Origin: Cellvibrio sp. UBA7671
Lineage (GTDB): Bacteria > Pseudomonadota > Gammaproteobacteria > Pseudomonadales > Cellvibrionaceae
Length of the DNA stretch: 64,000 nucleotides
Direction: 5' to 3'
NCBI GenBank assembly: GCA_002483145.1
Contig: DLHJ01000003.1
Span: forward strand, 186,001-250,000
Below are positions 40,113 through 54,561 of this stretch, piece after piece. A model generated the notes under the pieces. It did not search any database, was not told the DNA's origin, and was given only the letters and a program-made list of their open reading frames with translations. Numbering within the stretch: the first letter of the stretch is position 1; each line of letters opens with the position of its first letter. A program made the position numbers and the translations under genes.

Positions 40113-41975
40113 ATGAAAAATTTCCGTTCATCTCCATTATTCCTTGCATTAATCGCTTTACCCGCTTTCTCCGCCACCGAAGAACTTATCGTCACCGGCA
40201 GCTATAGCCCGGTGACTAATGAACAATTATCCTCTTCTGTTTCGGTTCTTAATAAAGAAGATTTGCTGCAACTCAGCAACCACAGCTTGATTGATGCATT
40301 GCGCCAAGTGCCCAGCCTCTGGGTGGAAGAACAAGGTGGCCCCGGCGGTATTACTTCAATCGCATTGCGCGGCGCTGAAGCAAACCACACATTAGTATTG
40401 CTCGACGGAGTGCAACTCAATGATCCCACCAATACCCGCGGTGGCGCATTTGATTTAAACGGAATTAATATTGAATCTATCGAGCGCATTGAAATTATTC
40501 GCGGCGCACAATCAGCGGTATACGGTTCAGATGCCCTCGCTGGTTTGATTCATATCATCACCCAAACACCTGGGAAAAAATCCACCACATTAAATGCCAG
40601 CCTTGGCAGCGATGATTACAGCAGCGTCGGTGTATCCACCAGCGGCAGCATCAACAAACTCGGTTACGCATTCAGTTTGCAGGGCAAAGATGCAGGCGAA
40701 CCCGTTGAAGGCAGTACCGCAAAAAATACCGAATTTACCAGCCGTTTAAATTGGCAAAAGGATATCCACGCACTGAATTTCAGCTACCGTTATTTTGACG
40801 GTGAACGCACCAGCTTCCCTGAACAAAGTGGTGGACCGGAGTTTGCTGTTGGGCGCGATTTGGATGTCAGCGAATATAAAGACCAAAGCGCTGCATTAAA
40901 TTGGGTAGCGCAAGTTAACAACATCTGGCAAAGCAAGGTGAGCGCCAGCTGGTACCAACGCGATGAAGACCTTACCTCCCCCGGCATAATCCCTTTCGAT
41001 GCAGTTCCGCCCAATGGTTCTGTAATTGACTTTAATCGCACCCAATTTAGTTGGGTCAACACCCTCGGCGACCAACAAAAAATCTGGGCAAACCTTGGTG
41101 TAGAAACCAAGCAAGAAGATGGCACCAGTGAAGGATATTTATATTCACCCGATGTATATCCCATTAATTTTGCACTGGACCGCCAGATCGATAGCGCCTT
41201 TATCAATCTAAACACCTATGCAACTGAAGCCTGGTTAGTTCAAGCCAGTATTCGCCGCGATGATACTGACGGTTTTGATGCAAATGATAGTGGCCAAATC
41301 GGTACCAAATTTACGCTAAACGATAATTGGACGTTATTTGCTAATTGGGGTGAAGGCTTTAAATTGCCGAGCTTTTTTGCACTCGGCCATCCGCTGGTTG
41401 GCAATCTTGATTTGCAACCTGAAACAGTAACGACGCGCGACGCCGGTTTTGAATTTAATCAAAATACATTCAGCGCACGCGTCAGTTATTTTGACCATCA
41501 CTATCGCAACTTAATTGATTTTGATTCCGAAACGTTTAAAAACGTTAACCGTTCACGTGTAGAAACCAGCGGTGTGGAAGCTGAATTTAATTGGCAAGTA
41601 CAACAAGACCTCAGCTTACGCGCACATGCGAGCTACACCGATATCGATATGATTTCTTCTGACAATCATTTGCTCGGCCGCCCACAAGTAACTTACGGCA
41701 CATCCGTTAACTATCAATTAAATGATGCATGGAGGTTCGACGCGCAGTATATGCGCGTAGATGAGCGCTTCGCCGTGAGCCGTTACACCGGTACCGATAT
41801 TGAACAAACTCTGGCTGCTTACAACCGTTTTGATGCAAGCATACACTGGCAACTCAATGCGCAAACCCGGCTGGGTTTAACGTTGGAAAACCTTGCAGAT
41901 GAAGACTACTACACCGACATAGGTTTTCCCGCATCAGGGCAGCTCGCCAAATTGAACCTGCGCCTAAACTTTTAG
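40113..41975 (+). CDS. TonB-dependent receptor, BtuB-like
   Basis: The 620-residue outer-membrane receptor has a signal peptide (PAFSA) and a TonB box EELIVTGSY immediately after it. The plug domain (RQVPSLWVEEQGGPGGITSIALRGAEANHTLVLLDGVQLND, RIEIIRGAQSAVYGSDALAGLIHIIT) and a 22-strand barrel ending in LRLNF follow. The compact size resembles BtuB-type receptors for cobalamin or small chelates. No cobalamin riboswitch was recognised in the 183 bases upstream, which instead hold the interspersed repeat. The ligand is therefore uncertain. Position next to the sugar-oxidising fusion gene is compatible with a saccharide ligand. Confidence 0.9.
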   Translation: MKNFRSSPLFLALIALPAFSATEELIVTGSYSPVTNEQLSSSVSVLNKEDLLQLSNHSLIDALRQVPSLWVEEQGGPGGITSIALRGAEANHTLVLLDGVQLNDPTNTRGGAFDLNGINIESIERIEIIRGAQSAVYGSDALAGLIHIITQTPGKKSTTLNASLGSDDYSSVGVSTSGSINKLGYAFSLQGKDAGEPVEGSTAKNTEFTSRLNWQKDIHALNFSYRYFDGERTSFPEQSGGPEFAVGRDLDVSEYKDQSAALNWVAQVNNIWQSKVSASWYQRDEDLTSPGIIPFDAVPPNGSVIDFNRTQFSWVNTLGDQQKIWANLGVETKQEDGTSEGYLYSPDVYPINFALDRQIDSAFINLNTYATEAWLVQASIRRDDTDGFDANDSGQIGTKFTLNDNWTLFANWGEGFKLPSFFALGHPLVGNLDLQPETVTTRDAGFEFNQNTFSARVSYFDHHYRNLIDFDSETFKNVNRSRVETSGVEAEFNWQVQQDLSLRAHASYTDIDMISSDNHLLGRPQVTYGTSVNYQLNDAWRFDAQYMRVDERFAVSRYTGTDIEQTLAAYNRFDASIHWQLNAQTRLGLTLENLADEDYYTDIGFPASGQLAKLNLRLNF

Positions 41976-42021: not shown

Positions 42022-42320
42022 CTTTCATCTGTAGGTTGTACACGCCTCGCAAGATGAGCTTAAGAGCAAGCATCCCCTTCGGTCATGTCAGGTAGACAGA
42101 CCCCCTTCGCTTCAGATCAGCGCTATCCAAAACACCTCATCCCGCCGCTCAAATTTCAGTCGAAAAAATTTACATCGCCCCTTAAACATCCTCCTCAACA
42201 ATATACTAACCATTTGTTTTTAATAGTAAAAAATCACATGGCACACATTATGCTGCCAGCACCGTGGCTTAGGCTATTTTTAACTCACTCATTTTGGCTA
42301 AAGTAAAAAGGACGACTAAC
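42022..42320. other. Upstream region of the PEP-CTERM gene
   Basis: This is a 299-base gap. A 73-codon open frame (42085-42306) lacks a ribosome-binding site and protein features and is judged spurious. The sequence is AT-rich near 42190-42250 and must hold the promoter of the PEP-CTERM gene; I see no clear operator. Confidence 0.5.
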
Positions 42321-42926
42321 ATGAAACTTATCAAGATCGCAGCTGCGGCGCTCATTACATTGAGCTCATTCGCAGCACAAGCAGGACTGATGTACATTGA
42401 TGGGGGCGCCAACTTACCGGTACCCACAAACAATTACTTCAAAAACGTGCTCAACCCACAGACCTACAATATCGGCGGCAACCTCAAAGCCAACCAAACA
42501 GAATCCCTGTTTTTAAGCTTTGAATTCCTGGGTAAAGAAGCTGGCTGGACCAACACTTTCACCTCTGAAGGCAATACCATCACCACCAGTGGCGGCTCCT
42601 TCTCATACAGCAAGGCTTACACCCTGGGTGAATTGATCCAATTCACCTTCAAAACTGGTGGTGCCGTTGTCCCTAACACTGTAGCTAACGGCAACAACAA
42701 TGACGGTGAAGAGCTTGTATCATTTGCTATTGCATTGGACACTGAGTTTGACGGCGTTATGTATGATGCCATCCTGTTCTTTGATGACACAGGCGGCTAC
42801 AAAGATGACGACAACCACGACGACTTGGTAATCGGCATCAAGGCAAGTGTCCCAGAATCATCAACTTTTGTATTGATGTTGATGGGCTTGGCGGGCTTGT
42901 TTGCGGCGCGTCGATTGAAGGCTTAG
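42321..42926 (+). CDS. PEP-CTERM sorting-signal protein
   Basis: A 201-residue secreted protein with a signal peptide (FAAQA-G) and a C-terminal PEP-CTERM tripartite signal: VPESSTF, a hydrophobic helix (VLMLMGLAGLFAA) and a basic tail RRLKA. The mature domain has acidic, calcium-loop-like Asp clusters (DDTGGYKDDDNHDD) that recall other PEP-CTERM surface proteins. Exosortase-bearing bacteria cleave this signal for transfer to the cell surface or exopolysaccharide. No exosortase or EPS gene lies in the window. ATG 42321 follows AAAAAGGACGACTAAC. Confidence 0.9.
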   Translation: MKLIKIAAAALITLSSFAAQAGLMYIDGGANLPVPTNNYFKNVLNPQTYNIGGNLKANQTESLFLSFEFLGKEAGWTNTFTSEGNTITTSGGSFSYSKAYTLGELIQFTFKTGGAVVPNTVANGNNNDGEELVSFAIALDTEFDGVMYDAILFFDDTGGYKDDDNHDDLVIGIKASVPESSTFVLMLMGLAGLFAARRLKA

Positions 42927-43116: not shown

Positions 43117-44625
43117 CTATTTTTCTGCTTTACAGTTCTCCGCAATGTATTGTGCATGGGTCGGCATGTAATCTACCGATTTATCGATGACTCGCTTGAC
43201 ACTTGCGAGCCGCTGGGAAATCTCTTCTGTTGTCATTCTATCCACTAACGGGTGATACGAACGAGGACGAATACCTTGTCCATGCATCACCTCAAACCAA
43301 CTAAGATCATTAAACATTTCATTATTGTTGCGATAAATGCGTCCATTTTTTTTAAATTGCTCAATCTTCTGAGTAAGTGATTCGGGCACATCCATTGTCC
43401 GGCAATAATTCCAAAAATCTGAGTCATTGCGTTCGGTCGCATGATAATGAAGTATCAGGAAATCGCGAATTTTTTCAAATTCGAAATCAGCCTGACGATT
43501 GAATTCGTCGATATCCTCTTGATCAAAATTTCTATTCGGAAAAAAGCTCATAAAGCGCGCGATAGCCGACTGAACTAAATGGATACTAGTAGATTCCAAT
43601 GGCTCCATAAATCCGCTCGCCAAACCGATAGCTAGACAATTTTTATTCCAGAATTTTTTGCGTTTACCCGTTAAAAATTTCAATAGCCTGGGCTCTGCCA
43701 AAGGTTTGCCATCCAGGTTGTTCAGCAATACTGATCTAGCTTCATCTTCACTCATAAAATTATTTGAAAATACATGTCCATTACCAATGCGGTGCTGCAA
43801 CGGAATACGCCACTGCCAGCCGGCGGCATGCGCAGTTGAGCGGGTGTATGGAAGGGGGTCTCCGGCACTCTCACAGGGGACCGCCCATGCGCGATTACAA
43901 GGCAACCAATGACTCCAGTCCTCATAGCCAGTTTTTAAAGCCTGCTCAATCAATAGTCCACGAAAGCCCGAGCAATCAATATAAAAATCTGCTTCATAGT
44001 TTTCGCCAGACTCCAACTGTAGGGATTTTATAGAACCGGTGTCCGAGTTTAGAATGACATCGACGACCTTACCTTCAGAGCGAATTACACCGCGCTGCTC
44101 AGAGTACTCACGCAGAAAGCGTGCATACAAACCTGCGTCAAAATGGAATGCATAAGCAATGTTGGATAAGGGCGAATTGCCTGCATCAAATGGTCGCATG
44201 AATTTACCCTGCTCACTTGCAGCACCACTGATGGTGTAACTCCCAAGTTCCTGTGCATTTCCCTCCTGCGCCATTTTCAGCCAGTAGTGATAGAATTGAA
44301 TTGACTCCATATCCTTACCCAAATCACCAAAGGCATGAATATATCTATCTCCTTTGCGCCCCCAGTTTACAAATTGAATGCCCAACTTAAATGTACCTTG
44401 AGTTTTGCGGACAAATTCATTTTCATCCAAATCCAATAGCTTATTAAACAATTGTATCTGCGGAATTGTTGCCTCACCCACACCCACTGTCCCTATCTCT
44501 TCAGACTCGATAAGTCTTATCTGACAATAGCCAGGCTTAATCAATTTAGCTAGGGCGGCGGCAGTCATCCAACCCGAGGTTCCACCACCAACAATAGCTA
44601 TGCGTCTAATATTATTATCTTGCAT
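43117..44625 (-). CDS. Flavin-dependent halogenase (tryptophan halogenase family), intact, third
   Basis: The 502-residue protein has all landmarks of flavin-dependent halogenases: FAD motif GGGTSGW (13-19), GVGEATIP (49-56), the catalytic Lys80 in GTFKLGIQF, the signature W270-Q-W272-R-I-P and the catalytic E344-S345-T346 in FMEPLESTS. The substrate is not predictable; tryptophan is not implied. Reduced FAD from an unlinked reductase is needed, as no reductase gene is nearby. ATG 44625 follows AGGTGG by 5 bases and is preferred over a GTG nine bases upstream. It is the last gene of the five-gene run, 45 bases after the degenerate paralogue. Confidence 0.93.
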   Translation of the reverse strand: MQDNNIRRIAIVGGGTSGWMTAAALAKLIKPGYCQIRLIESEEIGTVGVGEATIPQIQLFNKLLDLDENEFVRKTQGTFKLGIQFVNWGRKGDRYIHAFGDLGKDMESIQFYHYWLKMAQEGNAQELGSYTISGAASEQGKFMRPFDAGNSPLSNIAYAFHFDAGLYARFLREYSEQRGVIRSEGKVVDVILNSDTGSIKSLQLESGENYEADFYIDCSGFRGLLIEQALKTGYEDWSHWLPCNRAWAVPCESAGDPLPYTRSTAHAAGWQWRIPLQHRIGNGHVFSNNFMSEDEARSVLLNNLDGKPLAEPRLLKFLTGKRKKFWNKNCLAIGLASGFMEPLESTSIHLVQSAIARFMSFFPNRNFDQEDIDEFNRQADFEFEKIRDFLILHYHATERNDSDFWNYCRTMDVPESLTQKIEQFKKNGRIYRNNNEMFNDLSWFEVMHGQGIRPRSYHPLVDRMTTEEISQRLASVKRVIDKSVDYMPTHAQYIAENCKAEK

Positions 44626-44670
44626 AAAACCCACCTAATTGCGTTACAAACGTAACTCTGAAGAAAAAGA

Positions 44671-46152
44671 CTAATTTCTTAAAAAATAATTAATGTATTC
44701 ATCCAACGACGGTGATCGATCGCTGGCACTCTTCACTTGAGTTTGACGCTGAGCCGCCAGCGATGCAATTTTTTCCAAAGGGATTGAATCGAAACACAAT
44801 CCTCCAGTCATCGGAGCAACCCCAAATCCAATAAATAAATTAATCCATTGATCGCGAGTCAGTAAGGGGGACAAATAGTTCGAAATAACAGCACCGGACT
44901 TGAACAAATTTATGCTATGCACCGCATCTTCATAAATTGCTGGTTCAACTAACGCTTCTACCTGCGAACTCGTTAAAGCCGCAGTCAGCAACAAGAAAAT
45001 AACAATCAATTGTTGATGTTCCCTCGTCGTGATCAACGATAACCGATTAAACTCTTCACTTGCACCTGACATCGCTGCCGAGCATGCATAGCAATCGAGT
45101 AAATGCATCATGCTTTGACGAGCGGCTTCTCCGTACCCAGAAATCATATCCCATGGCACGTTGACAGCAGGAGGTATGCGAACATAATTCCCCTGCCAAC
45201 GAGCAGTATCATTAAAATCAAATTTACTCTTCTGTTCAGTTTTTACTCCGGATAAATCCAGACAAAGTTCCCGCACATTATTAATTGCAAAATTGTTATC
45301 GTTATTCTGAGTCTGGGTGCCCTCTTGCTGAAATGCGTAAAGGCGCATGCAAAATGTTGATTCAATATGCGTACGCGAAAAAAAACGTCGGCCGCGCACC
45401 CGCATGTGAGCCAAAGCTCCACCACCATTTTCAATGCCGTTATATTGCCTGCAAGTAATATTTACCGACGTCAACGATTCACTATCATCCCTTGATAAAC
45501 CTGCAGATGAGAGATCAATAAAAAGTTTCGCAGCAACATCTCGCTGCTGGTCCAGTCGCAGAAAATCGATATAAGTTGCAGAGCTGTCACCTGCGGGAGT
45601 TACCGTTTGCGCCCTGCACTCGGTCACTCCCAGAGCCAAAGCCCGCTCTCGCAACAGGTCAACATAACTTGCCAAGTGTAATTGCAAACCCACACCGAGC
45701 GATTGATAAATATCATGAGGCACCCGCTCTGGATCGATAAATTTGCCAGCGCGCGCCATAGTTGCGGCCAGCGAAAGCTCGGCCTGGTGGAAGTCACCAT
45801 AGGCAAGTAGTGAAGCCATAATTGACCAATCCACTTCCGCAGATCCAGCCAGGCTAGATCCATATGAGTGAAAAAAATAGCGGGCAGGTTCTTCAGCTGA
45901 AATATCAATACCCAACAACGGACGGGCAATTGATCGGCGCACTAATTCTTTTGCACTGATACCTAACAACTGATGAAATCGCCGAATAGACGGCGAAGCT
46001 GAAACGATTACCGCCTCATTTACACCTTCCGCAAAGCTGATAACAACTATTCTCGGGTTGAGCATATTTAGCTGTTTCGCCAGCAAGAGCGCCAGTGTCC
46101 AACAATCACTGGGGCTACCCACTATCGCAACGTCATATATTTTTTCTGCCAT
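44671..46152 (-). CDS. Degenerate halogenase-family protein (pseudo-enzyme B)
   Basis: A 493-residue protein collinear with its neighbours but lacking the catalytic set. The nucleotide motif is GSPSDCW instead of GGGTxGW. The catalytic Lys region reads ARPLLGIDI where the intact copies have T(F/Y)KLGIQF. The WxWxIP signature is absent, and the segment that should read FLEPLEST is NVPWDMISGYG. Collinearity is still clear in SPSIRRFHQLLGISAKELVRR (versus IPHIRHFNQFLGI) and the substrate-domain region. ATG 46152 overlaps the upstream stop as TGATG, so it is coupled to the intact copy before it. It has no internal stop and normal codon use. It probably cannot halogenate; a structural or regulatory role is inferred. 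Confidence 0.8.
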   Translation of the reverse strand: MAEKIYDVAIVGSPSDCWTLALLLAKQLNMLNPRIVVISFAEGVNEAVIVSASPSIRRFHQLLGISAKELVRRSIARPLLGIDISAEEPARYFFHSYGSSLAGSAEVDWSIMASLLAYGDFHQAELSLAATMARAGKFIDPERVPHDIYQSLGVGLQLHLASYVDLLRERALALGVTECRAQTVTPAGDSSATYIDFLRLDQQRDVAAKLFIDLSSAGLSRDDSESLTSVNITCRQYNGIENGGGALAHMRVRGRRFFSRTHIESTFCMRLYAFQQEGTQTQNNDNNFAINNVRELCLDLSGVKTEQKSKFDFNDTARWQGNYVRIPPAVNVPWDMISGYGEAARQSMMHLLDCYACSAAMSGASEEFNRLSLITTREHQQLIVIFLLLTAALTSSQVEALVEPAIYEDAVHSINLFKSGAVISNYLSPLLTRDQWINLFIGFGVAPMTGGLCFDSIPLEKIASLAAQRQTQVKSASDRSPSLDEYINYFLRN

Positions 46153-47651
46153 CAACTATGCTCCTCGTTGTTCAGCAGATGATTTATAAATAACTCGGCG
46201 CTCGGCATCTCATCAACTAATTGAGCTATTTCGTTGCGCATCCTCGCCAAATACCCCGCAACTGTAGCCTCCGAATATCCACCTACCCGCGGGTCAAAAT
46301 GCTGAGGAATAACACCCTGGCCGATACAAACTGCTGCATAAACACCATATTGCAGATGATCCACATGACCAACCTGCTGAAATATATTTTGTCGCTGCAC
46401 AAGAGAATCTGGCAGGCTCATCGTTTGGCAATAGCGCCAAAAAGCGGAGTCGTCACGTCGAGTTTCGGCATAATGCATGATTATAAAATCGCGAATACGC
46501 ACATATTCTGCGGTGACTCGCGCATTGAATTCGTGCTGCAACAATTGCTGATCGGCTCGAGGAGAAAATAAATCGAGCAACGCTTTTATACCGACTTGGA
46601 TAAGATAAATACTGGTCGACTCCAAAGGCTCCAAAAATCCTCCAGAGAGACCAATCGCAACACAATTTTTTCGCCACTGCTGCTGACGCATACCCGCCAC
46701 AAAACGAAACTTGCGCGGTTCCTCAAGCAAAGCAGCCCCTTCGAGCTGGGATAACAAGTGTTGGTATGCCAGATCATCCTGCATAAATTCGCTCGCATAC
46801 ACACAACCATTACCAACACGATGCTGTAAAGGTATTTGCCAACACCAGCCTGCAGAATGGGCGGTTGCTCGGGTATAAGGGCTTAGTCCAACCACTTTGG
46901 TGGAGGGCATTGCGAGAGCGCGATCGCACGGCAGCCAATGTGCCCATGATTCAAATTCGGCCCCCAAAGAACCGTTGATTAACAGCGCACGAAAGCCTGT
47001 GCAATCAACAAAAAAATCGGCCTCAACAACCTCGCCTGACTCCAAATGCAGTGAACAAATATTCCCTGTTACTGGATCACACTCAGTGTGTTTAACTTTT
47101 CCTTCCAGACGCACTACCGAACGATCTTCGGCGTAACGTCGTAAATAACTTGCGTAAAGTGCTGCATCAAAATGAAACGCGTAGTTGTAGCTGCCTCGCC
47201 AACCTGTATCATCGGATTGTGGATAGGCAAAACGATTTTTTTTAATTGCAGCAGCGGCTACGGAATAATCGTCGAACGAAGCCGCATTGCCCGATTGATA
47301 AGCACTCACCCAGAAATGTTGGAATTCAACACCATTTATATCGAATCCTACTGAGCCAAAGGGATGAATATATTCCTCACCAAGCTCACCCCAATTACGA
47401 AATTGGATACCCAATTTGAATGTTGCTTTAGTTGCACGAACGAAATCTGCCTCATCAATACCCAAAAACTGGTTAAAGTGACGGATGTGAGGAATGGTGG
47501 ATTCTCCAACTCCTACAGTCCCGAGCTCTTCGCTTTCGATTAGCCTTAAAGATAAGGGCATACCCGAAAATTTTTTCGCGAGTGCAGCCGCGGTCATCCA
47601 CCCTGCTGTACCGCCACCCAAGATCACCATCCGAGCATTATTGGTGGCCAT
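46152..47651 (-). CDS. Flavin-dependent halogenase (tryptophan halogenase family), intact, second
   Basis: A 499-residue protein with GGGTAGW (12-18), GVGESTIP, catalytic Lys79 in ATFKLGIQF, W269-C-W271-Q-I-P and E344-S345-T346 in FLEPLESTS. I choose ATG 47651 (MATNNARMVILGG): it is one base after the upstream stop, with GCGGAGCG just before it; the frame is open 14 codons further but without support. The substrate is unknown. It is tightly coupled both to the degenerate gene before it and to the one after it. Confidence 0.93.
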   Translation of the reverse strand: MATNNARMVILGGGTAGWMTAAALAKKFSGMPLSLRLIESEELGTVGVGESTIPHIRHFNQFLGIDEADFVRATKATFKLGIQFRNWGELGEEYIHPFGSVGFDINGVEFQHFWVSAYQSGNAASFDDYSVAAAAIKKNRFAYPQSDDTGWRGSYNYAFHFDAALYASYLRRYAEDRSVVRLEGKVKHTECDPVTGNICSLHLESGEVVEADFFVDCTGFRALLINGSLGAEFESWAHWLPCDRALAMPSTKVVGLSPYTRATAHSAGWCWQIPLQHRVGNGCVYASEFMQDDLAYQHLLSQLEGAALLEEPRKFRFVAGMRQQQWRKNCVAIGLSGGFLEPLESTSIYLIQVGIKALLDLFSPRADQQLLQHEFNARVTAEYVRIRDFIIMHYAETRRDDSAFWRYCQTMSLPDSLVQRQNIFQQVGHVDHLQYGVYAAVCIGQGVIPQHFDPRVGGYSEATVAGYLARMRNEIAQLVDEMPSAELFINHLLNNEEHS

Positions 47652-47652
47652 A

Positions 47653-49119
47653 TTAGCGCTCCGCATGATTATTTTGACTGCGCAACAGGTCATTGATATG
47701 CGCTACCTGTTGGGGAGCATTGGCTACAATCTCCCGAACCTTATTGAGAATGCTTTGGAAAAAATCCGGGAACTCATTGTCAGCTCGTTCAAGCCTTAAC
47801 GGCGGAAAGTGGATTGGCCATTTTTTTAGCCCCATGAGTAATGAAATCCATTCTGCCGCAGCTGGGTATCGCTCATCACGGTGAGGTAGTCGCGAGGATG
47901 CTATAAATACTTCTACCTCCTTGCGTAGTTCGGTCGGAAGAGATTGTAGATCGGACAGTTCGCCACCTTGAATCAACCAATAGCCTAGCAAATGCATATC
48001 CCTAACCGAACAATATAAGGTAGTTGCAAGGCGGTTGTACTCTTGCGCAAGGCTCGGTTGGAATGGAACAGAAGGCCAGAGTCCAATCAATAGCGCCAGC
48101 TCTTGCATAAGCAAATCCAACTCAGATACTAACAAGTTGCCAGGACGAGCGGCAGCAAGGCCAAGAGCCAATTTGCGGCCCTGCCAGGGCCGACAGAGGC
48201 AACCGTATGTATTTTGCCGCAGCGTTTTTTTCGCCGCTGAATGCGGTGACTGAGTTAAAAATTTGTCAAGCACGATTTTATTGCCAAGGTATTCGTAAGC
48301 AACCCCCGTGCGCAACGGTATTGCGTTGACAAGACTATCAGAACTAAACACAAGACTTGAAGTTGGATTCGGATTAAAATCGTTAGCAACAAACAGACGA
48401 GTAGCGTACTGATTTCCAAAATAATGAGTCCAGTCATGAACATCTTGATTGGGCTCGCTGGAAATACCCTCCTGAATATAGGATGCATCTATAACGAAAT
48501 CAGCAGTGTGACGCGCACCAGCTGAATCCAAAGCCTCCCCTTTCACTGCCTCATTTTTTTCTTTGCAAGGCGCGGTAACTTCATTTACAACTGTGATGCC
48601 GAGGTATGTCGCATAGCGAAGCAGTAGTCGGGTAAACGGAATTATATTTAAGTGTAACCCGGAGTAATTCTGCTCTTTTTTTTGCGCACCAGCCGCCGAT
48701 ACATGCCGCTGCAAATCAATTACTTTCCCATATTTTGATAATTGGGCAGTTACACAAAAATCATCATATCTGGCTTCCGGCCACAGAAAACGCTCAAAAA
48801 GCTGATGAAAATCCTGAACCTCATCTGATATACCGTAATCATCAACCGACCAATAGAATTCTCGTCCATATGACTCATCGACAATATGATGAGCTAAAAA
48901 ATAAGTACCGTCACATAGTCTCAGCAATGATTCCTGAGTGAGCTCCAGCACAGATAACAAACTTGAAAGCTCTCTCCTGACACTGACCGCACCATTGGTC
49001 TTCAGCTCGTTGTAACTCAGGGTTACTTTCAGGTTAGCGATTTTCTTTTTTAACGAGCAGGCTACGAGCAATGAATGCCACGAATTGCCTAACACCAATA
49101 CCGACTCAAGTCCCCTCAT
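47653..49119 (-). CDS. Degenerate halogenase-family protein (pseudo-enzyme A)
   Basis: A 488-residue protein collinear with the flanking halogenases but with its active-site motifs lost. The FAD motif is LGNSWHS, the lysine position falls in FLAHHIVDESYG, no WxWxIP is present, and ALGLAAARPGNLLVSELD stands where the intact copies have IGLSSGFLEPLEST. Matching blocks remain: FTRLLLRYATYLGITVVNEV, ADFVIDASYIQEGI and EYNRLATTLYCSVRDMHLLGYW. Its ATG overlaps the upstream halogenase stop by four bases (ATGA). The frame is open over its whole length, so it is likely expressed as a pseudo-enzyme or a protein with a new function. Confidence 0.8.
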   Translation of the reverse strand: MRGLESVLVLGNSWHSLLVACSLKKKIANLKVTLSYNELKTNGAVSVRRELSSLLSVLELTQESLLRLCDGTYFLAHHIVDESYGREFYWSVDDYGISDEVQDFHQLFERFLWPEARYDDFCVTAQLSKYGKVIDLQRHVSAAGAQKKEQNYSGLHLNIIPFTRLLLRYATYLGITVVNEVTAPCKEKNEAVKGEALDSAGARHTADFVIDASYIQEGISSEPNQDVHDWTHYFGNQYATRLFVANDFNPNPTSSLVFSSDSLVNAIPLRTGVAYEYLGNKIVLDKFLTQSPHSAAKKTLRQNTYGCLCRPWQGRKLALGLAAARPGNLLVSELDLLMQELALLIGLWPSVPFQPSLAQEYNRLATTLYCSVRDMHLLGYWLIQGGELSDLQSLPTELRKEVEVFIASSRLPHRDERYPAAAEWISLLMGLKKWPIHFPPLRLERADNEFPDFFQSILNKVREIVANAPQQVAHINDLLRSQNNHAER

Positions 49120-50660
49120 ACCACACCGTAAAGACTTGCAGCAACGGGCTGCTGGTTAATACCAGTCGCGCTTAGCTCTGCTTCCAAAACATCATTTGTC
49201 ATAGGCATCGCCTGCACCTGCAATTCCAGCTTTTCCCGCATCTTTTGCATTTCACCGAGCACAAAGGCGTCGGGATAATTAAGAACACGAGTATCGAAAT
49301 TGACTTTACCAACTCCCTGCCCAAGATATACAGCAAGCCAACTCGGCGACATAAAAAGACCATTTTGATAACGTTCTACATGCCCGGTAGCTCGGAACAA
49401 TTCAATACTACGTTCAAGTGACTCAGGCAGTGCCATATTCTGGCAGTAACGCCAGAACTCTGAGTCATTACGCTTGGTTATTTTATAATGCAGAATTAAA
49501 AAATCGCGAATCCGGACATACTCGGTTTCCATTTCATTATTATAAGCATCACGCAATGTAGACAGATCACCCGTCCCCGGAAAATACTCGAGAAACTTTA
49601 GAATCCCCTGCTGAATGAGATAGATACTGGTTGATTCCAGTGGTTCAAGAAACCCACTAGACAAGCCGATTGCAATGCAATTTTTTTCCCAATTTTTTTT
49701 TCGTCTTCCAGCAGTAAACTTCAAGAAATTTGGATCCGCCAGCGGGTAACCATCAAGATTAGTCAATAAGTTTTGCAAGGCATCTTCATCAGTGATCGCC
49801 GAACTGGAATACACCATTCCGTTACCCGTGCGATGCTGAAGCGGGATTCTCCATTGCCACCCCCAAGGCTTGGCATGGGCAACGGTATAAGGTTTTGGCG
49901 GTTCTACACGCTCACAAGGAACGGCGACAGCTCTATCGCAAAGCAGCCAGTTTGACCAGTCATCAAAAGGTACTGATAGTTTTTCGGCCAATAAGATTGC
50001 GCGAAACCCCGAGCAATCAATAAAAAAATCCCCTTCTACAGTTGCGCCGGAATCCATTTGCAAACTTGAAATGGCACCGCTAGTGGCATCGGTCATTACG
50101 TGAGACAAGCGCCCCTCAATACGAACGACGTTACGCTCCTCTGCATATTTTCGCAGAAACTTTGCATAACGTCCGGCGTCTATGTGATACGCGTAACTGA
50201 ATGCATTCTTGCCATTAATTGCGTTGGTTTCAGGAAAAGCAAAACGTTTTTTTTCTGCCATCACCACGGCAAGGGAAAACTGATCAAATGCCGGTGCCAC
50301 ACCTGAAGCCATAGCGGACAACCAGTAGTGATGAAAATCAATACTCCCTACAGGGTAACCGTGCGAACCAAATGGGTGGATATAAGCAGCCCCTAATGAA
50401 CCCCAATCGATAAATTGAATTCCTAGCTTATATGTAGCCTTAACCGCTGAAAGAAACGCCCGCTCTTCAATACCCAACATATTATTGAAATAACGAATAT
50501 GGGGAATAGTCGCTTCGCCAACACCAACGGTACCAATTTGCTCGGATTCGACCAAGACAACTTGATAGTTCTCAGGCAGAAATTTTGCACAAGCTGCCGC
50601 TGTCATCCAGCCAGCTGTACCACCACCCAAAATTATTATTTTTTTTAGTTCATTAAACAT
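49116..50660 (-). CDS. Flavin-dependent halogenase (tryptophan halogenase family), intact, first
   Basis: A 514-residue protein with GGGTAGW (12-18), GVGEATIP (46-53), catalytic Lys78 in ATYKLGIQF, W268-Q-W270-R-I-P273 and E342-S343-T344 in FLEPLESTS. These residues are those shown to matter in PrnA-type enzymes (Lys79 and Glu346 of PrnA; Ser/Thr chloride binding). ATG 50660 begins the five-gene run, 144 bases after the receptor stop, with a terminator-like hairpin in that gap. Relatives beside TonB receptors in Xanthomonas and Caulobacter have been found to brominate free indoles rather than tryptophan; the native substrate remains unknown. Confidence 0.93.
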   Translation of the reverse strand: MFNELKKIIILGGGTAGWMTAAACAKFLPENYQVVLVESEQIGTVGVGEATIPHIRYFNNMLGIEERAFLSAVKATYKLGIQFIDWGSLGAAYIHPFGSHGYPVGSIDFHHYWLSAMASGVAPAFDQFSLAVVMAEKKRFAFPETNAINGKNAFSYAYHIDAGRYAKFLRKYAEERNVVRIEGRLSHVMTDATSGAISSLQMDSGATVEGDFFIDCSGFRAILLAEKLSVPFDDWSNWLLCDRAVAVPCERVEPPKPYTVAHAKPWGWQWRIPLQHRTGNGMVYSSSAITDEDALQNLLTNLDGYPLADPNFLKFTAGRRKKNWEKNCIAIGLSSGFLEPLESTSIYLIQQGILKFLEYFPGTGDLSTLRDAYNNEMETEYVRIRDFLILHYKITKRNDSEFWRYCQNMALPESLERSIELFRATGHVERYQNGLFMSPSWLAVYLGQGVGKVNFDTRVLNYPDAFVLGEMQKMREKLELQVQAMPMTNDVLEAELSATGINQQPVAASLYGVV

Positions 50661-50753
50661 GGAAGAACTCTCTAACCCAAAGCACTATTCCAGAATAATA
50701 GACTGGAACTGTCAAATCGGATCATCGGGGGATACAAATGCAAAGATTTGGAA

Positions 50754-50786
50754 TAAAAAAAAGCGCACAACTTCCGTTGCGCGCTT
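50754..50786 (-). terminator. Terminator or attenuator between receptor gene and halogenase run
   Basis: The stem AAGCGCACAAC/GTTGCGCGCTT (one mismatch) has a 4-base loop and is followed on the minus strand by eight T. It lies 19 bases after the receptor stop. It should reduce transcription into the halogenase genes or end the receptor transcript. Confidence 0.85.
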
Positions 50787-50804
50787 CTCCTAGCGTATTA
50801 AAAC

Positions 50805-53800
50805 TTAGAACGTACCCTTCAACAACAGCGCTACACGTCTGTCATTGACAAACCATGAGCGACCAGCCTCCAAACCTTTGCCATCGAGAATCATGATAGT
50901 TTCAGTTTGGGTATTCAACAGGTTGGTAAACTGCAAACCTACTGTCAAATTATCGTTAAGCTTGTAGAACGCTGAACCGTCAAGGAAGCCAGAATCATCA
51001 TTCCACAGAGGATAACGACTGATTACGTCACGGGTAGTCAACAAGTAGCGTGAACGCCAGTTATAGGCCAAACGCAATGAAATAGCATCCTTATCGTACA
51101 TACCCACGATATTGAACGTGTCTTTCGATTGCCCCTGTAATGGCAGGCCAGAAAGATCTACTCGCGCACCTGTATCTATATCACCACCATTATCTGGATC
51201 AAGGCTTCCTGAATTGGGAATAGCTTTGGAATCAATATAGCTGTAGGTCACTTGCAAACCAAGACCATCAAAAGGAGCTGGCAACATGTCGTAGAATTGC
51301 TGATACGCAAGCTCAAACCCTTCCAACTCGCCCTCACCGTTATTGATGGTACCCTCGACTGTCGCAGTCTGCGTCACGCCAGATGTTGGGTTGGTGTAGA
51401 CACGATCAAATGCACCGTTCACAAAGAAGTTGGTCAGATCTTTCTTGAACAACGATAATGTCAAAGACCCTACATTGGCAAAATACCACTCCAGAGAGGC
51501 ATCGTACTGCTTAGACTCCATTGGATTCAAATAAGGGTTACCAGAACTGCCCGCCCAAGTGTTAATAGCTCCGCCAACAAGCGTCGTTGAAGGTGGAGTT
51601 ACCGACGTATCAGTCAACACAGCTCGAGTAGTTTCAAACGCTCGCAGACTGGTAGTATTGCGCACCAAGTCCATGTCAGGCATTGCGATTGCCTTTGAAG
51701 CACCAAAACGTACCAACAGGTCATCAGTTAACTCCACTTTCAAATTAAAGCTCGGCAACCATGCATCATAGTCATGGACTGAGTCCTCGATAGATGCACC
51801 GTTGTTACCAAACCCAAGTTCAGTTGGCGAGAGGAAGTTACCAATGTCACCGGCGTACTTCGTTGCAGCATCATAATCCGTCTTGATGAATGCATTGTCA
51901 TACGAACGACGAGCTGAAATCTCCTCAGCAGTGGGCGTAGCACTTAACGGCGGAGGATTGTATGCAGGGTTACTTGCTGCCGCTGCTAACAACTCGTTTC
52001 TTTTACCCTCGAGGTAGGCCAGGTGCGCCGCAGTGTTGCGCGGGTCTGGGGCACCTGCAGGAGGAAGATCGCGAGGGAGAACGTCGGGGTACTGTACCGA
52101 ACCAGTGGCAACGCGCTCAAAGTTTACGTAGCGTAAGCCGAAGTTTCCGTCAAATCGATAGGAATAATCCTCCGACCCAAAATCAACGCGCACGTAGGCA
52201 GCCTGATTGGTCTCTTCGGTAATAAAGACTTCTGACGGCAGGAAATAAGAACCGGTAGTGCCTGGACGATCAGCAGCATTTTCCCAAAGATTGCCACTAC
52301 CACCCGTCGGCAACTCACGTTGTTCTTTTACGATGGACTTAACCAGCGCATCTGAAGGATGAAGCATCGTATTTCCTGGGATAGTAATAACGCCACCACC
52401 ATGGAAATCCGACCAATCCACCTCTTCCCACTGACCACTTATCTCAGAGACAATTGGAGTATCCGCCCAGCCGATTTGATCAAACGGCTGCGCCCAAATA
52501 GGAGTTAATTGACCCCAGTTGTAGGCTGTTGAACGAACGGTTTGCTCGCGATTTGCATGGCGTATACCTGATCTAACTGCTTTTATAAAACCAGCGTCAT
52601 CGTCGAAGGTGTAAATTCCATCCAAGCGAGCCGCTTTAGAGTCACCTTCTGAGCGCTCGTAATGGTCCATCGCCGACTGCCACCAGTATGAAGTCGGATC
52701 TTGGAACCAGTTAGAATCGCCGGCAGGGTCATTTGAAAAGCCTGGCAGCGCCTTACCGCCAACCAACACACCCGCACCCGCAGCGCCAAATGGGCCAGTG
52801 CCCTCGCTACCCTCCACTACCAAGGCATTGCTATCTACGGCCATATTGTTATCGCGAATACCATGCCATGGTTCGATCAGTGTGAGGCGAGGCGTACTGC
52901 CTGACACATCGAAATCCTGAATGGCGTGAGTTGCCATCATTACAGTCACATCATCATCTTCGGTATTGGCCTTGATGTACTGCAAATCTAAACTCAATTC
53001 AAAATTGTCGCTTGGAGTCCACTTGAAGTTAGTGGCAAAGTCATCGATTACCGTGCGAGTACTCTTATAACGGTTATCAGTCTGGAAGCGAGAACCAAAC
53101 TGTGCGACAGCAGGGTTAGCCCAGCTGGCGGCGTGAGGCAAACGCAGCGCAGCCGGATTATCTGGGTCAGCAGAGCGCCAGCCGCCATCACTGAAGCGCC
53201 CATCCTGAGTGATAACACCACCCTGAAATAAGCCGTCATCGTCAAACTCGTACTCGGTGCCTTGCAGAGGAAGTGCTTGACGACGCTCGTAACCAGACTG
53301 GTATTTAATAGCATTTTCTGTCCAAGCCAACTCAGCATCTGAACGCATAAACTGCACAGTGGCCAGAAAGGTATCTTCGGGGTTTTCCCACTGCAAGGCA
53401 GTAGCCAAGCCTTGACGATCACGATCATCAAATTTCATGGTAGCGTTCGAGCCTTGAGGCATCCAAACAGAGCGGCCAGCTTCCGCAAAACGCTCCGCTC
53501 CAGCTATATCATTCGGCCCGGCATGCCCGGCACCTGGTGCAGACAAAGCGCGAGGAAAGTCGCTATAGTCGTCGCGATATTCAACATAAGCATCCGACTG
53601 AATACCATGGGAAATACCCTTCAAAGATGATTTTGATGCGTTGATTAAAAAGCCAAACTCTCCCGCCTCCGTTTCCCAGCGATCGCTGTAAAGACCAGAA
53701 AAAGTAGGTGTCCACTCTTCGGCCAAATCACCATACGAATAGTCAACGTTAAATGCCATAACGCGATCATTCGAATCGAAAGGCTTGCGAGTAATCAAGT

Positions 53801-54332
53801 TCACTGTACCGCCAATGCCACCTTCTACCATATCAGCTGATTGGTTTTTAAACACCTGAACGCCAGCCATCAACTCTGGTGGAACGTCTTGAAAGCTCAA
53901 ACCGCGCCCTGAGTTGGCTGTGAACGAATCGCGACCGTTGAATTCTGAACGAGTAGCGGACATACCGCGAATTACAGCACCTGAACCTTCAACCCCGAAA
54001 TGGTCAGGGTCGTTTGCGGCAGCAAAACGTTCGATTGATACACCAGGAATACGTTGCATCGCCTCCAGTACGCTACGATCTGGTAAGGAGCCGATGTCTT
54101 CTGCCGAAATAGCATCTACGAAGGTATCCGAGCTTCTTTTAACATCCTGCGCGTTTTGCAAGTTAGCACGCACACCAGTTACAACAATTTCCTCAACACT
54201 GGCATCTTTTTCTTCTGTTGTATCTTGCGCAAAAGAAGGAGCACTCAATGCCATGATGCACATAGCCAACATGGATTTTTTGAACTTAACGCCCTGCTGT
54301 TGTGCGGTTTTTTGATTTTTATGGAAAACCAT
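50805..54332 (-). CDS. Large TonB-dependent receptor (Xanthomonas/Caulobacter type)
   Basis: The 1175-residue outer-membrane receptor has a signal peptide (MLAMCIMALSAPSFAQ), a TonB box-like VEEIVVTGVR, a plug with ERFAAANDPDHFGVEGSGAVIRG and a large barrel ending in LLKGTF. It belongs to the long TIGR01782-type receptors that import glycans or glycosides in Caulobacter, Xanthomonas and Cellvibrio. ATG 54332 has AAGGGG 7 bases upstream. A LacI-type palindrome lies about 230 bases before the start. The five halogenase-family genes follow, so the receptor may import the substrate or a precursor. The ligand is not predictable from sequence. Confidence 0.93.
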   Translation of the reverse strand: MVFHKNQKTAQQQGVKFKKSMLAMCIMALSAPSFAQDTTEEKDASVEEIVVTGVRANLQNAQDVKRSSDTFVDAISAEDIGSLPDRSVLEAMQRIPGVSIERFAAANDPDHFGVEGSGAVIRGMSATRSEFNGRDSFTANSGRGLSFQDVPPELMAGVQVFKNQSADMVEGGIGGTVNLITRKPFDSNDRVMAFNVDYSYGDLAEEWTPTFSGLYSDRWETEAGEFGFLINASKSSLKGISHGIQSDAYVEYRDDYSDFPRALSAPGAGHAGPNDIAGAERFAEAGRSVWMPQGSNATMKFDDRDRQGLATALQWENPEDTFLATVQFMRSDAELAWTENAIKYQSGYERRQALPLQGTEYEFDDDGLFQGGVITQDGRFSDGGWRSADPDNPAALRLPHAASWANPAVAQFGSRFQTDNRYKSTRTVIDDFATNFKWTPSDNFELSLDLQYIKANTEDDDVTVMMATHAIQDFDVSGSTPRLTLIEPWHGIRDNNMAVDSNALVVEGSEGTGPFGAAGAGVLVGGKALPGFSNDPAGDSNWFQDPTSYWWQSAMDHYERSEGDSKAARLDGIYTFDDDAGFIKAVRSGIRHANREQTVRSTAYNWGQLTPIWAQPFDQIGWADTPIVSEISGQWEEVDWSDFHGGGVITIPGNTMLHPSDALVKSIVKEQRELPTGGSGNLWENAADRPGTTGSYFLPSEVFITEETNQAAYVRVDFGSEDYSYRFDGNFGLRYVNFERVATGSVQYPDVLPRDLPPAGAPDPRNTAAHLAYLEGKRNELLAAAASNPAYNPPPLSATPTAEEISARRSYDNAFIKTDYDAATKYAGDIGNFLSPTELGFGNNGASIEDSVHDYDAWLPSFNLKVELTDDLLVRFGASKAIAMPDMDLVRNTTSLRAFETTRAVLTDTSVTPPSTTLVGGAINTWAGSSGNPYLNPMESKQYDASLEWYFANVGSLTLSLFKKDLTNFFVNGAFDRVYTNPTSGVTQTATVEGTINNGEGELEGFELAYQQFYDMLPAPFDGLGLQVTYSYIDSKAIPNSGSLDPDNGGDIDTGARVDLSGLPLQGQSKDTFNIVGMYDKDAISLRLAYNWRSRYLLTTRDVISRYPLWNDDSGFLDGSAFYKLNDNLTVGLQFTNLLNTQTETIMILDGKGLEAGRSWFVNDRRVALLLKGTF

Positions 54333-54561
54333 AGCCAACCCCTTTGTTAAATTTATCTTTAGGTGATTTTTATATTGTTTTGTATTTCAGGAAGAAATCA
54401 AAACTCCTCAAGTGTAGATCAAGGTTTTGCTGCTAGAGCTGATCTTGCATACTTGTAAGCAAAAGAAAGCAAGATACTCATATCCTACGCCTATGATGAT
54501 TAATGTGTCAATCTGACTATAAGTCATAACAGAATAATAAATGATCCATCGCAAGATGAAT

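Follow-up and report, generated by a model that had tools for sequence, protein, structure and literature searches.

Degenerate halogenase-fold genes adjoin one subtype of intact BrvH-like halogenase in a Cellvibrio gene run and in many other bacteria

The tryptophan halogenases PrnA, RebH, PyrH and Thal are enzymes of biosynthetic gene clusters that act on free tryptophan. In PrnA-type chemistry, reduced flavin adenine dinucleotide (FADH2) and O2 give hypohalous acid, which a lysine relays to the substrate. Loci are also known in which genes annotated as tryptophan halogenases (Pfam family PF04820) are linked to a TonB-dependent receptor (TBDR) and have SapC, cupin or Pass1 partners, and our search found no paper describing them. 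Enzyme-pseudoenzyme heterodimers, in which an active subunit retains a dead paralogue as its partner, are a further known arrangement. Here we describe five consecutive PF04820 genes, alternately intact and degenerate, in a stretch of 64,000 nucleotides (nt) of Cellvibrio sp. UBA7671 (the window, to which all positions below refer), located on contig 15 of a 5.04-Mb genome. Many other bacteria have the same pair of an intact and a dead gene side by side, which makes the dead copy look like a conserved partner subunit rather than a remnant of decay.

The nearest solved relatives of these proteins are BrvH (6frl), Xcc4156 (6y1w) and 9luq from Pseudoalteromonas sp. L11, and this holds alike for the profiles of the two intact types, called A and B below, and of the degenerate type, D. 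Judged by these relatives, all three types belong near the BrvH/Xcc4156 subgroup. PrnA, RebH, PyrH and Thal have the same fold and catalytic motifs as the intact proteins of the run, yet are more distant: the A and B profiles score about 380 to 417 bits on the tryptophan halogenases versus 638 to 697 bits on the BrvH group. BrvH and Xcc4156 are indole-acting flavin-dependent halogenases that were studied as single enzymes, and the accessible portions of the two reports mention no inactive partner (PMC5945002, PMC7336383). A second halogenase gene, 42.7% identical, is described upstream of brvH (PMC5945002), and, according to the accessible portion of the later report, what BrvH and three Xanthomonas halogenases act on in nature is not known (PMC7336383).

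In the window, five open reading frames (ORFs) matching PF04820, all full length and without internal stops, lie on the minus strand behind a TBDR, in the transcription order intact-degenerate-intact-degenerate-intact (H1, D1, H2, D2, H3):

50805 to 54338, minus strand: TBDR of the TIGR01782 class, 1177 amino acids (aa), upstream of H1; NCBIfam TIGR01782 607 bits (cut-off 310) and Pfam Plug and barrel
49116 to 50660, minus strand: H1, intact A-type flavin-dependent halogenase, 514 aa; PF04820 598 bits, motifs kept, A clade, C-terminal tail ...SLYGVV
47653 to 49119, minus strand: D1, degenerate protein of predicted halogenase fold, 488 aa, putative partner of H1; PF04820 80 bits, motifs lost
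46152 to 47651, minus strand: H2, intact A-type halogenase, 499 aa, without the SLYG tail; PF04820 575 bits, A clade
44671 to 46152, minus strand: D2, degenerate protein of predicted halogenase fold, 493 aa, putative partner of H2; PF04820 78 bits
43117 to 44625, minus strand: H3, intact B-type halogenase closing the module, 502 aa; PF04820 664 bits, outside the A clade

The TBDR and H1 are 144 nt apart. Four of the five genes are translationally coupled, by the junctions ATGA (H1/D1), TAA-T-ATG (D1/H2) and TGATG (H2/D2), and 45 nt separate D2 from H3. The Pfam cut-off of PF04820 is 21 bits, and D1 and D2 are thus weak but clear members of the family. In the alignment, H1 to H3 all keep the catalytic lysine (YKL/FKL), WxWxIP and EPLEST, as well as GxGxxG, and they are 47 to 51% identical to one another. 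D1 and D2 lack the lysine, Trp-x-Trp, Glu-Ser-Thr and GxGxxG. D1 shares 20 to 22% identity with the intact copies and D2 25 to 27% over its first ~220 residues only, and BLAST found no significant similarity between D1 and D2 (best E value 0.94). By their full-length PF04820 matches (575 to 664 bits) and their motifs, H1 to H3 can be assigned to the flavin-dependent halogenases. D1 and D2 show the homology and the predicted fold, but because the catalytic lysine, the Glu-Ser and the FAD loop are missing, D is better filed as a halogenase-fold pseudoenzyme than as a halogenase.

An initial annotation, made from the DNA letters alone, had already described the alternating run and its three junctions, and both are borne out by the ORF map and the PF04820 scores; the alignment confirms the motifs that it reported for the intact copies. 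Its statement that the degenerate copies had lost all of them holds for the lysine, Trp-x-Trp and Glu-Ser-Thr, but D1 still has the IP of WxWxIP. The label PrnA-type, which it gave to the intact enzymes, is right as to fold and catalytic motifs and imprecise as to kinship, the closest group being that of BrvH, Xcc4156 and 9luq.

Searching 195 genomes (that of the window and relatives) with D1 and D2, we read 40 neighbourhoods, some of them other loci of the same genome, in which the common order was TBDR-intact-degenerate-intact. The module is present in Gamma- and Alphaproteobacteria, and one of its carriers is the culturable relative Gilvimarinus xylanilyticus (L247). The five-gene form recurs in two genomes of the same genus (loci L082 and L083), and a scaffold of Cellvibrio mixtus J3-8 shows the order A-D-A-D-B. 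Variants include A-D followed by a TBDR and then B (L085, L090, L092), A-D without a subsequent halogenase (L087, L096, L117) and a closing gene on the opposite strand (L097). In this first set, 30 of 31 D genes lay behind an intact gene and one (L086) behind a 5′-frameshifted A gene, all on the same strand; the gaps ranged from -70 to +12 nt, with an overlap in 29 of the 31 and +12 nt in two. A 1014-aa open frame at G016 that looked like a natural A-D fusion was rejected, its ORF map showing a 5′-frameshifted A gene and a separate D of 465 aa.

Profile hidden Markov models (HMMs) for A, B and D were then built on the first set, with the B model trained on all 50 intact proteins outside the A clade. 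A held-out set was drawn by an A-profile search of 144 genomes of the family (30 loci and 40 further regions, high-scoring matches only), with D accepted at gaps of -110 to +150 nt. D lay directly downstream of 34 of 36 A-type genes versus none of 33 B-type genes, two further B-type genes with no room downstream being left out. One of the two exceptions (L188_3050) does have a D, with an over-extended ORF start, and the other (L183_2534) stands in the closing position, with a score just 11 bits away from B. In a wider sample, mostly but not only outside Cellvibrionaceae (the scan of named genomes covered the best 80 of 589 relatives; gaps of -600 to +150 nt), D followed 47 of the 50 genes whose A score exceeded their B score by 40 bits or more, 3 of the 52 where the difference was 0 to 40 bits, and none of the 66 in which B scored ahead.

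Altogether, 115 distinct D-scoring ORFs of at least 330 aa were found under 100 distinct genome or record titles; the 10 of 160 ORFs below this length that were left out comprise four entries for the two G031 pieces, each seen twice, and six that run off the edge of a locus. An A-type gene lies directly upstream of 110 of the 115, overlapped by D in 94 and within 20 nt in the other 16. The overlap is exactly 4 nt in 40 of them; ORF starts were taken as the first ATG, GTG or TTG, and overlaps such as -43 or -68 nt may therefore be over-estimates. A and D thus form a nearly invariant, usually overlapping gene pair. By coordinates, the five D-scoring ORFs without an upstream A gene comprise two with over-long starts (L252, L242), two at a locus edge (L295, L306) and one in L094, which was rejected as D because it is an FAD oxidoreductase of another kind (PF01494 plus PF04820). 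The unit of the run is the A-D pair (H1 with D1, H2 with D2) followed by the different intact subtype H3, and the alternation in the window follows from this pair rule.

The genome of the window holds 25 strong PF04820 matches (at least 393 bits) and three D genes (D1, D2 and C18:282339). Two of its weak matches, on C3 (L094:7570-8919) and at C18:359190 (L095:8164-9771), were considered as D and discarded, both being FAD oxidoreductases with PF04820 and PF01494 that fall outside the A, B and D groups. Scanning the contigs of this genome for D1 peptide patterns gave no match, probably since D is too divergent for such patterns. Elsewhere on it (L093, C1:326000-345900), two convergent TBDR-halogenase-halogenase sets face each other, with four intact genes and no D. 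Modules also occur in records titled Arthrobacter sp. TPD3018 (L258) and Bacillus sp. 2B10 (L296), probably because these assemblies carry a wrong name or contaminating DNA; Sphingomonas records L277 and L288 have D proteins that share 64% identity with that of L258.

Two trees, both from quick searches, place the three types apart. Among 112 proteins, 31 degenerate ones separate from all intact ones with a branch support of 99; a 32nd row labelled degenerate is the 5′-truncated A gene of L086. The intact genes upstream of D, H1 and H2 included, form one clade (31 rows, support 93), and H3 falls in a separate group (29 rows, support 94). H2 clusters with an A gene from L082 and another from L083, the two further five-gene operons; H3 shares 83% identity with the gene that closes the G009 module, and the closest relative of D1 is in G009 (L022; 41% identity). 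D2 has the longest end branch of this tree (4.81), and exact places within D are unsure because of such long branches, that of D2 above all. In the second tree (76 rows: 28 D proteins from Alpha- and Gammaproteobacteria that evolve slowly, plus the proteins encoded beside them), D occupies one side of a branch with support 100 and B one with 96; A requires two changes, three genes in the closing position having been scored as A by HMM. The A, D and B subtrees largely mirror one another, as for the Caulobacter, Aquisalinus and Cellvibrio modules, as if the modules had travelled as a unit.

The D proteins would keep the halogenase fold, according to AlphaFold models computed from the D sequences alone. 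For D1 (mean predicted local distance difference test score, pLDDT, 86.5; predicted template modelling score, pTM, 0.89), the best Foldseek match was BrvH (6frl; TM-score 0.85, E value 3.0e-31), and for D2 (pLDDT 85.3, pTM 0.90) it was 9luq (TM-score 0.82, E value 6.8e-29). Both models match flavin-dependent halogenases over their whole length, the best being BrvH, 9luq and Xcc4156 (TM-scores 0.78 to 0.85); D1 and D2 thus share a predicted fold with the indole-acting enzymes but lack their catalytic residues.

The loss is general in the conservation table, which covers complete D proteins of 400 to 620 aa in H1 numbering. At 92 positions A is invariant to 97% or more; mean retention there was 97% in B and 40% in D, and only 10 of the 92 were retained at 84% or more in D. 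Core residues are kept in D at 91 to 99% (G12, D215, W324, N327, G332 and N374, with G12 at 99%), while the catalytic sites K78, W270, E342 and S343 remain in 12, 6, 10 and 3%, the FAD-loop residues G46, V47 and G48 in 14, 3 and 8% and E38 in 34%. The triad of K78, E342 and S343 occurs in none of 100 D proteins versus all 107 A and all 53 B proteins, and both K78 and E342 are missing in 79 of the 100. D has a signature of its own, with G157 (76%), G138 (71%), L444 (69%) and E434 (63%). Three short D proteins of 344 to 368 aa in alphaproteobacterial Erythrobacter and Sphingorhabdus records (L239:7503-8537, L276:7467-8513 and L289:5200-6306) lack 98 to 103 of the 141 residues matching H1 205 to 345, the segment with WxWxIP and EPLEST, yet stand behind an A gene; the N- and C-terminal parts of the fold remain, with smaller gaps.

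D nevertheless seems constrained. Among 25 close D pairs, 8 had a saturated synonymous rate (dS) and 6 more a dS above 1; in the 11 with dS below 1, which share members and are not all independent, the ratio of nonsynonymous to synonymous rates (dN/dS) was 0.17 to 0.44. This exceeds the ratio of the A partner in each of the 11 pairs and is still far from neutral; by this measure D is under purifying selection.

Co-variation was assessed in 63 complete triplets of A, D and the downstream intact gene (B-type in 50, A-type in 13). The divergence matrices correlate at 0.70 for A-D, 0.50 for D-downstream and 0.55 for A-downstream, values matched by none of 2000 permutations in each case, and the partial correlations are 0.59 for A-D versus 0.19 for D-downstream. 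With the TBDR included (29 sets), the partial correlations are 0.63 for D-A, -0.21 for D-TBDR and 0.45 for A-TBDR. By these values D seems tied more closely to A than to the receptor, and the idea that D follows the receptor finds no support in the value of -0.21.

We consider it reasonably likely that D serves the A-type BrvH-like halogenases of receptor-linked loci as a dedicated subunit without catalysis of its own, probably within an A:D heterodimer. The initial annotation had proposed obligate partners as one possibility and had asked for the phylogeny: the degenerate proteins do form a clade of their own, conserved next to intact copies in a fixed place behind one intact subtype, with a predicted halogenase fold, and neither random decay or absence in relatives nor lack of the fold, which it had named as refuting outcomes, was found. 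The complex, its stoichiometry, the role of D towards the substrate and the link to an imported ligand are what we infer from this arrangement. Because A and B hold the catalytic residues and D1 and D2 have none, D would be a structural or substrate-binding subunit, with A carrying out the FADH2/O2/halide chemistry; D would lend stability and form part of the surface that binds the substrate. In gel filtration BrvH behaves as a dimer (from the accessible part of PMC5945002), and the same crystal dimer is reported, in the portions available, for Xcc4156 and tryptophan halogenases (PMC5945002, PMC7336383). The heterodimer would probably use the interface by which BrvH, Xcc4156 and PrnA pair with themselves, D most likely replacing one protomer of the usual pair. 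The substrate may be cytoplasmic and linked to import by the cognate TBDR (possibly a glycan in several related loci). The B-type enzyme, H3 in the window, would act in the same pathway as a further halogenase, independent of any D, so that two putative A-D complexes and one B would be stacked behind one receptor.

Several observations weigh against this reading. In the wider sample, D is missing behind 3 of 50 clear A-type genes and 49 of 52 borderline ones; the A/B split by HMM is less sharp there, and A-like genes without D exist. Nearest-neighbour agreement for A-D (33 of 63) is barely above that of D-downstream (29 of 63) and A-downstream (28 of 63), and shared operon inheritance accounts for part of the congruence in all the correlations. 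D evolves fast, with a mean identity of 0.22 versus 0.50 for A, and the three short D proteins are also gapped at 58 to 83 of the other H1 positions, outside the active-site segment. GxGxx[GA] at H1 positions 12 to 17 is retained in 48 of 100 D proteins (25 GxGxxA, 23 GxGxxG), and some of them may still bind a nucleotide cofactor. Xcc4156 is possibly monomeric in solution, as the available part of its report has it (PMC7336383).

The retained GxGxx[GA], together with the nearly universal G12 of the Rossmann fold and D-specific conserved positions such as G157, E434 and G138, would also suit a neofunctionalised enzyme, that is, a flavoprotein fold that catalyses a different reaction on what A uses or makes, in a two-step pathway and not in a complex. 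We think this unlikely: so few of the A-invariant positions persist in D, our reading of the conservation table shows no conserved polar set replacing the lost one, D1 and D2 have lost GxGxxG, and the three short proteins are without most of the active-site segment. A role as regulator or sensor, in which a cytoplasmic D would bind A or the ligand taken up and would inhibit A or adjust expression, is perhaps a shade less probable still. It fits the fast divergence and the receptor-linked loci, some of which have an AraC regulator or histidine kinases nearby, but Pfam gives PF04820 only, and no DNA-binding domain, in the seven D proteins scanned, and the fixed place directly behind A with translational coupling suggests stoichiometric assembly.

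If D instead carried FADH2 to A, it would take the place of a flavin reductase missing from the locus. As the initial annotation had noted, no flavin reductase, SapC or cupin is seen in the window, at least among the 32 of its proteins that were scanned with Pfam, which are part of its ORFs; the poor retention of E38 and of the FAD loop in D, however, makes a carrier very improbable. Least credible is a reading of the degenerate copies as pseudogenes, duplicates in decay that are carried along with the operon. Fast divergence would agree with it, as would one split gene (L216, G031:C2:391000-400000), where D lies in pieces of 194 and 288 aa and the next B is also split, by sequencing error or real decay. 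Neutral decay is, however, contradicted by the single clade, the dN/dS well below 1 and the linkage to A with its conserved coupling and position, and the two pieces from G031 are the only complete ORFs below 330 aa among the 160 D-scoring ones (from partly repeated loci).

Where at least 2.2 kb upstream was visible (91 A-D pairs), a TBDR lay directly upstream in 56 and somewhere in the locus in 82. Scanned related loci have neighbours of glycoside hydrolase (GH) families GH20 and GH18 and an AraC regulator (same genome as the window) or GH115, GH10 with a sugar transporter, GH97 and CBM15 proteins; the hydrolases, CBM15 proteins and sugar transporter point to glycan uptake in those loci. On one side of the window module, a PEP-CTERM protein and a second TBDR (40113-41975) are followed, 6.5 kb from the module, by a 3-keto-disaccharide hydrolase, and on the other side lie adenylosuccinate synthetase and other housekeeping genes, with GH43 and arabinose isomerase more than 35 kb off; its substrate class is not given by its neighbours. 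Two further features flank its genes:

50750 to 50795, minus strand: hairpin followed by a T run, like an intrinsic terminator or attenuator, directly 3′ of the TBDR stop and before H1; -22.3 kcal/mol, z -4.75
42294 to 42926, plus strand: small protein with a PEP-CTERM motif, directly downstream of the module on the opposite strand

A hairpin with a T run occurs in 40 of 54 TBDR-to-A spacers, compared with a mean of 1.2 and a maximum of 3 in 20 shuffles, which is consistent with more receptor than halogenase being made; a generic scan did not list the window hairpin. A C-terminal tail like SLYG (often MSLYGVFS) was present in 52 of 107 A proteins and in none of 53 B and 100 D proteins; H1 has it (49119-49136, minus strand) and H2 does not. 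Such a tail could serve in docking.

Compared with the receptor-linked tryptophan halogenase loci, the window likewise has a TBDR beside PF04820 genes, and its relatives have glycoside hydrolases, but it differs in the A-D-B order with a degenerate paralogue and in having neither SapC nor cupin among the scanned proteins; in another locus of the same genome (L092), a Cupin_8 gene lies between two halogenases. An A enzyme with a dead D would be of the same kind as the enzyme-pseudoenzyme heterodimers, of which our literature search found no halogenase example; the search, which covered open-access papers and neither subscription journals nor preprints, turned up no recognisable account of active and inactive halogenases in pairs. 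Halogenase-fold proteins and TBDR-linked halogenases are both known, and it is the conserved A-D(-B) module that seems new.

For genome mining, this means that the PF04820 annotation as tryptophan halogenase can mark a protein without a halogenase active site. If the A:D complex is real, it would add a pair of halogenase and pseudohalogenase to enzymology. More tentatively, and with some doubt, Proteobacteria may possess a widespread class of heteromeric flavin halogenases, in which a conserved catalytic A would be paired with a fast-evolving dead D that supplies the substrate-binding surface. D would thereby tune the choice of the macromolecule to be halogenated, one that the receptor imports or is linked to; BrvH-like enzymes assayed alone would then seem slow and without a substrate in vitro, part of their system being missing. 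A conserved dead partner would be a concrete candidate for a missing factor of BrvH-like halogenases, of which genomes like this one carry many copies.

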